64,000 bases of DNA, from the NCBI RefSeq assembly GCF_021129235.1, contig NZ_JAJOMA010000002.1:1-64000 (forward strand). The letters are read 5' to 3'. The stretch is from Kineosporia mesophila. GTDB lineage: Bacteria; Actinomycetota; Actinomycetes; Actinomycetales; Kineosporiaceae. Shown here in pieces: positions 12,498-15,856 of the stretch; positions within the stretch are counted from its first letter, which is position 1, and every line of letters begins with the position of its first letter. A program made the position numbers and the translations under genes. A model generated the notes under the pieces. The model was not told the DNA's origin. It made no database searches and worked only from the letters and a program-made list of their open reading frames with translations.

Positions 12498-13808
12498 ATG
12501 GATGACGATCAGTTCTGGAAGCTGGCCGGAGACCACCTCATTCGCTACGGCGGCAGTTTCACACCGCGCATCATCGAGTTCGCGGCCGGGTCGTACGTCC
12601 ACGACGCGCAGGGCCGGGCGATCCTCGACTTCACCTCCGGCCAGATGAGTGCCGTGCTCGGGCACGCCCATCCGGACGTGGTGGCGGCGATCCGGGAGGC
12701 CGCCGGCACCCTGACGCACCTCTACTCGGGCATGCTGAGCCGGCCGGTGGTCGAGCTCGGCGCCCGCCTGGCCGGATCCCTGCCCGCCGGCCTGGACCGC
12801 ATGCTGCTGCTGACCACGGGCGCGGAGTCGAACGAGGCCGCGATCAAGATGGCCAAGCTGTCCACGGGCCGGTACGAGATCGTCTCCTTCGACCGCTCGT
12901 GGCACGGCATGACCTCGGGCGCGGCAGCGGCCACCTTCTCGGCCGGGCGTCACGGGTACGGGCCGCCGGTGCCGGGCAACCTGGCGCTACCGACACCGAA
13001 CGCGTACCGCTCGCCGTTCCGTCGCCCCGACGGGTCGTACGACTGGGAAGCCGAGCTGGACTATGGATTCCAGCTGATCGACCAGCAGTCGGCGGGCAGT
13101 CTGGCGGCCTGCCTGGTCGAGCCGATCCTCTCCTCGGGCGGCATCATCGAGCTGCCGCCCGGCTACCTGGCCCGCCTGCAGCAGCACTGTCGAGCACGCG
13201 GCATGCTGATGATCCTCGACGAGGCGCAGACCGGCCTGGGCCGGACCGGCACGATGTACGCCTTCGAGAGGGACGCCGTCGTGCCCGACATCCTCACGCT
13301 TTCGAAGACCCTGGGCGCGGGCCTGCCGGTGGCCGTGGTGATGACCTCCGCCCAGATCGAGGAGACCTGCCACGACAAGGGTTTCCTGTTCTTCACCACC
13401 CACGTCTCGGACCCGCTGGCTGCCACGGTGGCGCTGACCGTGATCGGCGTGATCGAGCGCGACGGCCTGGTGGACCGCGCCGTAACTCTCGGGAACCTGC
13501 TCCGGGAAAGACTTTCCGGGCTTCGTGAGAAGTACGACGTGGTCGGCGACGTGCGTGGCCGGGGTCTGCTGCAGGGCATCGAGCTGGTCACCGACCGGAA
13601 GAGCAAGGCCCCCGCCGACCGGCTCGGCGCGGCCGTCACCACCGCCTGCCTGGAACGGGGGCTGCACATGAACATCGTGCAGCTACCCGGTATGGGCGGG
13701 ATCTTCCGGATCGCCCCACCTCTGACGATCACGCCGGAAGACCTGAACCGGGGCGTCGACATCCTGGAAGACGCCCTGAGATCGGTGCTTTCCGGAAACC
13801 GTCAGTAG
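12498..13808 (+). CDS. dgdA: 2,2-dialkylglycine decarboxylase (class III aminotransferase)
   Basis: PLP enzyme of 436 residues that decarboxylates 2,2-dialkylglycines such as 2-aminoisobutyrate and passes the amino group to pyruvate. It matches recalled Burkholderia DgdA along its length: [80 protein letters not shown], the PLP-lysine segment [11 protein letters not shown] and [10 protein letters not shown] near the end. The start is ATG 12498 ([19 protein letters not shown]) without a clear ribosome site. Its stop overlaps the convergent sigma-fusion gene by seven bases. The usual DgdR repressor is not adjacent. Confidence 0.88.
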
Positions 13809-15856
13809 TTCATCCGGGCACCCCGCGCGGTGGCGGTGACCAGGAAACGGGTGCGGGGCAGCGAACCGTCGCGGCGGCGGTCCGCCTCCGCACCCGCCGG
13901 GTCCAGGGAGGCGAAACCGGTCGCCGTCCAGTCGTTGTCCACCTGCCGGGCGCTTGCGGAGAAGGCGTCGTCCGGGTTTCGCGCGGCCAGGTTCCGGGTC
14001 AGCACGGCCGGGGAGTCCGGTAGCCAGAACCCCGCGACACCGTTGCGGTAGGCGGTGTTCCGCGTCAGTTCGAGGGCGCCGGTGTTACCCTCCTCGTTGA
14101 ACCCGAGGCCGCGGTTGTCCCAGGCCGCGTTGTCGGTGAGCACGTGCGCGACGTGCACGGCCGTACCGCCACCGCCCAGCGTGAACCCGTTGCCGTTGCC
14201 GAACGACCAGCTGCCCCGCACCGTCACCGGGCTCGTGAACCCGCCCAGATCCAGGCCCTCCACCTGGTTTCGGTAGGTGCGCACGCCCGAGATCCGGTTG
14301 CCCACCCCGTTGCCGTACATGATCCCGAGACCGTCGCGGTTGTCGTGCAGATCGCTGTTCGCGATCCGGTTGCCGAACGTGCCCTCGCCCCGCAGCATCA
14401 GCCCGGACGCCCCGTTGCCGTGACTGTCCAGACGCCGGAAGACATTGTCGTGGCAGGACTCGCACATGTAGGCGTGGCTGGGGCCCCGGGTGATCTCCAG
14501 GCCCTGTACCGTCCAGAAGTCCCCGGTCTGCACGATGCCCCACTGGTCGTGGGGCAGCCCCGACAGGTCGAGCACCGGCCGCTCGTCGCGGTAACCGCTG
14601 AGCACGATGCGGCGTTTCGCCGTGCCGGAGGTGTCGATGTGCAGCGTCTGCGACGAACGGTAGACACCCTGGCGCAGCGCGATCGTCTGGCCCGGCCGCA
14701 CCACGGACACCGCCTTCTCCAGGGTGGCGAACGGCTGCGCCCGCGAACCCCGCGCGTCGTCGTCGCCGTTCGGCGCGACATACAGATCGGCGGTGCTCAC
14801 CCCGGCGTAGGTGCGGGTGCTCGTCGGGGTCGGGGTGGTGGACGTCGTGGGCACCGCGGTGGTCGGTGCCGTTGGGTGGGGCGCGGGGGAGGAAAGTCCG
14901 GGAGAGGCCGGCGCGGGTGACGAGGGGCCGGTCCAGAGCGGATAGGTCACCCCACCCAGCGTGATCGCCGCCGCCCCCGCGACCACTGCGCCCTTACCCG
15001 CGACACTCGTGAGCAGGGACGAGACCTTGCCCACGGCAACCGCGTTCACGGTCGCCGCGCCCGGCAGCCTCGTCAGCAGGACGGCCGGCACGGCGACCAG
15101 GCCGATGCCCTGCAACAACGACTCGCCCGACACCAGATCACGCGCGTAGGGCCGGCACTGCGCACAGTCGCGGGTGTGCCGGGTCAGCCGCTTGCGCCAG
15201 CGGGAATCGGCGCGCCCGTCCCAGATCTTCACCAGGGCGTCGAGATCCGGGCAGCGCGGGCGGGCGTTCAGCGCCCGCAGTAGACCCCGGGTGCCGTCGA
15301 GGCGCTGCCGCATTCGCTGCAGCCGGACGGCCGCGTGCTGGGGTGTGGCGGCGATGGCCCGGGCCAGGTCGGCGCGGGTCAGTTCGCCTGAACTCTCTTG
15401 CCACCAGAGCGAGAACAGCTGCCGGTCGGCCGTCTCCAGCCAGCGCGCGGCCTGGGCCAGCTCGCGGCGCTGACCCTGGAGGGCCAGTTCGGAGACGGTG
15501 CGCTCGGCGAAGTCGGCCTGCGGATCGGGGATGTCGGCCTCGACCCGGCGGAACACGGTGCGGTAGCTCGTCCGATGCAGCTGCCGGTAGTGCTCCTGCA
15601 TGCGGCGGTAGGCGATGGTCACGGCCCACGAGCGGAACCGGCCGGGCTCCCGCAGCTCGGGAAGGCCCCGGATGATGCCCATCATGGTGTCCTGCACCAG
15701 GTCGTCGACATCGCTGTCGCCGTTCAGCGCCCGGCCGACCACGTTGTAGATCAGCGGCAGGTGGGTGGTGACGAGCTCGTCGAGCGCTGCCCGGTCGCCG
15801 GACTGGGCCAGCAGCACCAGATCGGTGGTGGCGGTGCCGGAGCCTGTGCTCGTCAT
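13802..15856 (-). CDS. Membrane-anchored sigma factor fused to pectate-lyase-like beta-helix domain
   Basis: 684 residues in one uninterrupted frame. Residues about 15-92 are sigma region 2 ([34 protein letters not shown]) and 122-195 are region 4 ([20 protein letters not shown]). A conserved module follows with RHTRDCAQC (H227, C231, C234), an anti-sigma zinc-finger-like pattern. A transmembrane segment lies near 285-306, a Ser/Pro/Thr linker at 310-350, and from 355 a right-handed beta-helix domain ([13 protein letters not shown], then repeated N/G-rich coils) resembling family PL9 pectate lyases. The start is ATG 15856 with AAAGG upstream. It is divergent from the secreted pectinase at 16069. 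It probably senses extracellular pectin and directs RNA polymerase; that role is inference. Confidence 0.85.

Follow-up and report, generated by a model that had tools for sequence, protein, structure and literature searches.

Can a single protein recognize a plant polysaccharide outside the cell and act inside it as the sigma factor for the enzymes that degrade this material? The question is raised by a gene in the first 64,000 nucleotides of contig NZ_JAJOMA010000002.1 of Kineosporia mesophila (assembly GCF_021129235.1; this whole stretch is hereafter called the window), located at 13802..15856 on the minus strand and divergent from a gene for a secreted pectinase. Its product joins, in one chain, an extracytoplasmic function (ECF) sigma domain, an anti-sigma-like motif, a probable membrane helix, a linker and a beta helix resembling PL9 pectate lyases. 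We consider it likely that this protein constitutes a one-piece pectin signalling system, i.e. a receptor outside, a sigma factor inside and a regulon of pectinases.

The fused protein and its outer domain

The gene reads without interruption from an ATG at 15856, with AAAGG just 5' of it, to a stop at 13802, giving 684 amino acids. The sigma domain covers residues 24-186 (15299..15787, minus strand), where TIGR02937, a sigma70-ECF model of regions 2 and 4, matched with an E value of 3.2e-20 and 72.4 bits (cut-off 42.9), and the Pfam model Sigma70_r2 matched residues 28-95 (E 7.4e-17). By these two models the protein has the ECF layout, i.e. regions 2 and 4 without a region 3 insert; the separate region-4 Pfam model gave no match in the fused protein.

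For comparison, a family set was assembled from 80 named loci, 80 further genome stretches and the window, yielding 161 distinct fused frames, six of them truncated by contig ends; as the named loci are the best 80 of 501 confirmed, these 161 are not a random sample. Genes in the fetched loci, some of which have short flanks, were called with a home-made caller and their starts may be wrong. The sigma domain is followed by HTRDCAQC (residues 227-234; 15155..15178, minus strand), which reads as a zinc anti-sigma-like motif; HxxxCxxC is the mark of zinc-type class I anti-sigma domains as described in PMC7406223. It stands at the expected place in 159 of the 161 family members. Pfam zf-HC2 did not match the fused protein and matched one of 14 aligned family members (E 0.16). 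A second HxxxCxxC, HAYMCESC at residues 461-468, sits inside the beta helix and was rejected as a second zinc site, since a secreted PL9 paralogue (L002; labels of this kind are our own) has this CxxC too, which places the motif outside the cytoplasmic module.

The probable membrane helix (residues ~289-308; 14933..14992, minus strand) was assigned by hydrophobicity and charge bias. Another hydrophobic stretch, at residues ~247-261 between HTRDCAQC and the helix, is conserved, and a linker rich in Pro, Ser and Thr, recognizable from its sequence, follows the helix (residues ~309-349; 14810..14932, minus strand). Among 151 scannable family members, Lys and Arg were more numerous before the membrane helix than after it in 117, fewer in six and equal in 28. 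This bias is an indirect sign that the sigma part lies inside and the beta helix outside the cell, the likely topology and the one that an earlier, sequence-only reading of this DNA had claimed.

An orthologue was found in each of the six genus genomes searched (own genome included), outside the own genome always as one open frame of 719-754 codons with a sigma part 71-94 % identical to that of the window protein, and PL9-type fusions also occur in Micromonosporaceae and Streptomycetaceae. For two of the genus genomes the proteins are identical at every residue to those in loci of K. rhizophila and K. babensis, which points to Kineosporia as the genus. These intact frames in the genus and in other families rule out an assembly artefact or frameshift. 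The sequence-only reading had named absence of the fusion from every relative as a result that would speak against it; what it had described, a single 684-residue frame of sigma domain, HxxxCxxC, membrane segment, linker and PL9-like domain, was instead borne out by the open frame and by the matches to TIGR02937, Sigma70_r2 and 1RU4. The domain search and genome survey that it proposed returned the sigma and PL9-like domains and 24 PL9-type proteins among the 161 fused sigma factors.

The outer domain (residues 350-672; 13841..14809, minus strand) was matched by the pectate lyase Pel9A (1RU4) with an E value of 5.9e-28, so that by sequence it has the PL9 beta-helix fold; the Pfam Pel9A-like model fell slightly below its cut-off in the window protein (22.7 versus 25.2 bits). 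In Pel9A, Lys273 is the catalytic lysine and four Asp are the calcium ligands, and the Pel9A numbering is consistent with the alignment of the window protein to 1RU4. There, Thr559 (14180..14182, minus strand) occupies the position of the lysine. The active-site residues could be read in 23 of the 24 PL9-type fusions (L189 has a run of N in the region), and none of these 23 has the lysine, compared with all three secreted PL9 paralogues of the own genome. It is replaced by Thr in eight, Val in six, Ala in five, Arg in two, and Asn and Ser in one each. The calcium ligands are retained unevenly: of the 23, five have Asp209, three Asp233, 14 Asp234 and 19 Asp237. In the window protein the first and last of these are conserved and the other two are Val and Glu, so that it lacks the full set of Lys273 and four Asp. 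All five residues are present together in the three secreted paralogues and in none of the 23 sensors. The outer domain is thus very probably not a working lyase, and the loss of the lysine in all readable sensors, as opposed to its retention in the secreted paralogues, indicates that the beta helix is probably a retired lyase used as a receptor.

That the helix is instead a working surface-anchored pectate lyase, the sigma link merely coupling the amount of lyase to expression, seems very improbable to us: the fold and substrate cleft are likely kept and the residues of the near secreted paralogues look like those of active enzymes, but the universal loss of the lysine, the two changed calcium ligands of the window protein and the lack of any readable member with all five residues speak against it. 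As the main explanation it was ruled out by the active-site comparison.

The divergent pectinase gene and its promoter

The gene divergent from the fusion (16069..18519, plus strand) encodes, according to Pfam, a secreted protein composed of a ricin-type lectin, a pectinesterase and a PL1 pectate lyase. Its promoter comprises a -35 element, TTTGTGTTAT (15964..15973, plus strand), conserved in the genus with one member changed, and a -10 element, CGACTAC (15990..15996, plus strand), 16 bases after GTTAT. All six genus members have the pattern TTT[GC]TGTTAT-N16-CGACTAC between the two divergent genes, with spacers that are unalike and, in L067, a single change. Allowing two mismatches, it was found seven times in the six genomes versus twice for the reversed pattern; six of the seven are the divergent-locus sites, and the seventh, without mismatch, starts 79 bases upstream of another pectinesterase gene in genome G002 (PF01095, E 3.5e-53). 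On the other strand, a conserved CTGTGyCAGGATCrGC stretch in the alignment (15888..15903, minus strand) may be a housekeeping-type promoter for the fused gene itself.

The linkage holds across the family. Neighbouring enzyme genes were counted within 5 kb with a BLAST panel of eight proteins from the genus, which other enzyme families escape. A pectinesterase gene adjoined 18 of the 24 PL9-like fusions versus none of the 137 others (orthologues counted), in 16 cases divergently and in two in tandem. In other genera the promoter takes the form TGTT[AG]TC-N16/17-[AG]TCTAC. This common form, antisense to the fused gene and within 330 bases upstream of it, was present for 16 of the 24 PL9-type genes versus 0 of 24 in the reversed control. 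Where the pectinesterase is divergent, 15 of 16 loci have it, L067 with its altered site being the one that does not.

A wider search used 14 of the 17 named PL9-type loci, representing 13 genomes (L183, L184 and L189 were left out). TGTTRTC-N16/17-RTCTAC occurred at 24 sites in these genomes versus two for the reversed pattern. Ten of the 24 are fusion-locus sites that had shaped the pattern, eight of which precede a pectinesterase gene and one (L295) a PL1-like gene slightly below the Pfam cut-off; the tenth is L294. The other 14 were not used for the pattern and precede genes for pectinesterases (six), PL1 (two), PL11 (three) and GH43 enzymes (two) and a histidine kinase (one, L277). Thirteen of these 14 therefore stand before pectin-related enzyme genes if GH43 is included, for which an arabinan-type substrate is assumed; gene identities come from the BLAST panel, with Pfam run on eight of the 14. 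L191 and L193 have no pectinesterase beside the fusion, and their genomes carry a site before one located elsewhere (L279 and L284).

Two sets of genomes served as controls. Among 35 genomes of the family to which genome G351 belongs, a PL9-type fusion was found at E 1e-60 only in G351, and the 34 fusion-free genomes had two sites versus four for the reversed pattern, with no panel enzyme in the 3 kb fetched. In 199 Streptomyces genomes, whose fusion content was not surveyed, there were 13 sites versus 23 reversed, and for 12 of them no panel enzyme was found within ~1.5 kb. The remaining one (L313) precedes a ricin-pectinesterase gene whose divergent neighbour is a PL9-type fusion with Thr in place of the lysine, and this fusion was located from the promoter pattern alone. 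Like the architecture, the loss of catalytic residues and the pectinase linkage, the co-occurrence of promoter and fusion is visible in the sequences themselves.

Because of the pectinesterase linkage, the shared promoter and the site counts in the 13 fusion genomes and the Streptomyces control, the view of the sequence-only reading that the divergent pectinase is the target is well supported by sequence comparison, which also argues strongly that the fused sigma factor reads its promoter. Another sigma factor or regulator might do so, the fused protein being a neighbour with a different role. Recognition by the fused sigma factor is deduced rather than seen, and paralogous fused sigma factors also have TGTTAT-type -35 elements, so that one of them could serve some sites, e.g. 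those before PL11 genes. We nevertheless hold this to be unlikely, since sites and fusions go together, the sole Streptomyces site before a pectinesterase adjoins a fusion, and the -10 element differs between groups, with a CTAC type for PL9 fusions and a GTCTCC type upstream of the CAP and GH128 ones. That the fusion is a product of chance or decay without function is scarcely credible. In L189, L191 and L193 no adjacent pectinesterase gene was found, which illustrates that components can be lost, but all six genus genomes have an intact frame, as do the named PL9-type members (one with N), those of Micromonosporaceae and Streptomycetaceae included, and a promoter conserved alongside the fusions argues against a functionless gene.

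Several observations weigh against a one-piece pectin signalling system. The membrane helix of the window protein is Ala/Gly rich and weakly hydrophobic (mean 1.54 over 19 residues), and a simple hydrophobicity scan with a threshold of 1.6 called residues 246-264 as the sole stretch and not the helix at 289-308. Six of the 24 PL9-like fusions have no pectinesterase gene within 5 kb; the promoter-like site of L294 now precedes a DinB-like gene, with no pectinesterase found; and several of the 14 sites not used for the pattern are orthologues in near species. Genomes G414 and G351 contain the fusion and lack the exact promoter pattern, although a one-mismatch form was seen by eye upstream of a pectate-lyase gene in G351 and L196 in G414 has TGTCATC; a universal motif rule was dropped for this reason. 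The -35 element alone was not used as evidence, as TTTSTGTYAT gave 24 matches versus seven reversed in six genomes, about half of them without a convincing gene.

For topology, promoter recognition, ligand and release, we infer the following course. The sigma part would be tethered at the membrane and held off by the adjoining HxxxCxxC module, while the PL9-like helix outside, without the lysine and, here, two of the four calcium ligands, would be the receptor for pectin or its fragments. Once the ligand is bound, the sigma part would be released or activated, cleavage within the membrane helix or close to it being the most likely means, and the freed sigma factor would read promoters of the type TTTnTGTTrT..., ~19-20 bases, CTAC, switching on pectin-degrading enzymes. 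The predicted regulon consists of the divergent pectinesterase/pectate-lyase gene only in the own genome (exact search) and of several pectinase genes in Micromonosporaceae.

Some further features of these promoter regions were noted. In L187, L188 and L190, GGGAGCGCTCCC palindromes lie within the pectinesterase promoters, upstream of the fused gene; they resemble CebR-type operators and are a possible second control layer. At L193 (9846, minus strand) a pectinase-type promoter persists and the gene behind it is now DinB-like. In L161 (genome G003), a TTTCTGTCAT site lies shortly upstream of a secreted GH114 gene, possibly a further target of a fused sigma factor.

Related fused sigma factors and their neighbours

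The outer domains of the 161 fused sigma factors, grouped by BLAST clusters with Pfam run on individual members only, fell into CAP (61), PL9-like (24), X (17), AbfB (14), GH128-like (11), Lcl_C (6) and others (28); Pfam on examples identified glycosyl-hydrolase-type and AbfB outer domains among the relatives. Enzyme neighbours follow these groups. Within 5 kb, GH10 and GH62 genes were found at seven of the 14 AbfB fusions versus none of the 147 others (orthologues counted), a PL11 gene at all six Lcl_C fusions, with one more between the AbfB and PL9-like fusions of genome G006, and an alginate-lyase-type gene at five of the 17 X fusions and one of the 28 others. In a tree of sigma domains (130 rows, bootstrap not settled), the PL9 label requires two changes and the AbfB label five, four of which are forced by well-supported branches, suggesting that outer domains were exchanged.

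Related bacteria thus appear to use the one-protein design for other plant polysaccharides. With somewhat less confidence than for the pectin system itself, we favour a modular actinobacterial family with a common front end of sigma, anti-sigma-like and membrane parts, TGTTAT-type promoters and interchangeable outer domains matched to enzymes. It would pair PL9-like domains with pectinases, AbfB with GH10/GH62 arabinoxylanases and Lcl_C with rhamnogalacturonan lyase, some outer domains being retired enzymes (PL9) and others binding domains (AbfB, Lcl_C). If so, swapping one domain would rewire which plant polymer induces which enzymes. That each type of sensor goes with a matching type of enzyme is in keeping with substrate sensing as such, yet leaves standing the possibility, which we rate as real if clearly the lesser one, that the receptor responds not to the polymer but to oligogalacturonides, to the secreted enzyme or to contact with the plant wall through attachment. 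Polymer and fragments are not separated by the present data, and the ricin-type lectin domains of the linked enzymes could be bridged on the same material.

The orientation of the -35 element differs between groups. In the PL9 group it was sense to the fused gene in three of 24 and antisense in 17 of 24 (reversed pattern, one each). Elements directed toward the fused gene were found for 38 of 61 CAP (reversed 2), seven of 11 GH128 (reversed 0), six of 16 X (reversed 2), four of 14 AbfB (reversed 0) and five of 27 other fusions (reversed 2); in the Lcl group the scan was uninformative, matches equalling the reversed control (6 of 6). In the CAP and GH128 groups the element is followed by the GTCTCC-type -10 before the fused genes themselves, which suggests autoregulation there. 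As a family-wide rule autoregulation was rejected, since the element of the PL9 group faces away from the fused gene.

The own genome encodes three fused sigma factors, i.e. 13802-15856, 29533-31311 and L080 on contig C8. The second, a family member with another sensor (29533..31311, plus strand), has an outer domain of group X, for which no Pfam family was found and a structure-sequence search returned sigma matches only. It is convergent with an alginate-lyase-type gene (31352..32617, minus strand), and TTTC[CT]GTCAT occurs upstream of both (29444, plus strand, and 32678, minus strand), which makes the two genes a possible second system of this kind. The third (L080, 7692-11590) has Lcl_C outer domains and immediately follows a PL11 rhamnogalacturonan lyase gene, an arrangement seen in all six genus genomes sampled. 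Elsewhere in the family, a 931-residue fused sigma factor (L134, 9668-12463, genome G085) combines a different outer beta helix with a second run of hydrophobic residues at its C terminus, after LAQTG, and is perhaps fixed to the wall there.

Among other features of the window, MFS transporter and TetR genes left of an aminotransferase gene (11704-12480) are remnants, recognized as BLAST pieces only, and both are intact in relatives such as L065. Opposite the MFS remnant, the other strand has an open frame (10498-11262, plus strand) that contains five-residue repeats of the GEVAF type. Two groups of three tRNA genes (19459-19720 and 20681-20943) have near-equal scores, as if duplicated, and a cobalamin riboswitch lies at 2869-3081 on the minus strand (RF00174, 93 bits).

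Comparison with known signalling systems

Whether this architecture had been described before was left undecided by the sequence-only reading. As a kind it had been: for ECF48, ECF52 and ECF53 sigma factors, PMC8999054 expects fusion to a zinc-finger and a membrane part, with proteolysis as the means of release. SCO4117 (ECF52), as summarized in PMC5826349, has a carbohydrate-binding module and controls development, and a 2024 review (PMC10766802) mentions predicted glycosyl hydrolase and carbohydrate-binding domains in some ECF52/ECF53 proteins, experimental validation lacking. These three sources outline a single chain in which a sigma domain is followed by a zinc-finger module, a membrane part, a proline-rich linker and an outer domain related to carbohydrates. 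The window protein shares the sigma domain, the membrane part, here a weak helix, and the proline-rich extension, while its HxxxCxxC motif and PL9-like helix would correspond to the zinc-finger module and the outer domain; the likeness is one of domain layout. A search of two Streptomyces genomes found no ECF52 member as a direct relative, the sole other long frame among the matches (L271) being another ECF type by eye. The outer domain here is a PL9-like pseudo-lyase and not an NPCBM-type module, the predicted regulon consists of pectinases as opposed to development and antibiotics, and the promoter is TGTTAT-type as opposed to the CSGY-17-SRHA given for SCO4117 in PMC5826349.

IutY of Pseudomonas putida likewise has sigma and anti-sigma factor in one chain, freed by regulated proteolysis in the account of PMC8999054; it belongs to Gram-negative siderophore signalling, and that account, as far as available to us, describes no comparable outer polysaccharide domain. 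Compared with the PL9 lyase Pel9A (1RU4), which is homologous over residues 350-672, the window protein lacks the catalytic lysine, has partly lost the calcium site and is tethered to a sigma factor. The literature searched yielded no paper on a pectate-lyase-type fused sigma factor, which does not establish priority. The PL9-type sensor, its promoter and its regulon look new; it is not so much the architecture that is novel as the combination of a retired-lyase sensor with a matching, very small regulon. This class offers a predicted ligand type, a promoter, a small regulon and built-in controls in the form of paralogues with other sensors, so that sensing, release and target choice are testable within a single protein, and a one-gene pectin sensor would be a useful biosensor part.

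A further parallel is provided by the SigI/RsgI systems of Clostridium thermocellum and Pseudobacteroides cellulosolvens, in which, as presented in PMC4711584, PMC6056542 and PMC12203970, the outer domains are binding or nearly inactive enzyme domains, e.g. the GH10 domain of RsgI6, and sigma-I3 and sigma-I11 drive pectinase promoters. Both designs would have a membrane receptor with such an outer domain. In the clostridial systems, however, sigma and anti-sigma factor are two proteins and SigI is not an ECF sigma factor, whereas the window protein is one chain with an ECF domain; RsgI is also equipped with a periplasmic domain that cleaves itself, for which no search was made in the window protein. 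The use of a retired enzyme as a sensor would thus parallel clostridial RsgI6, apparently reached independently.

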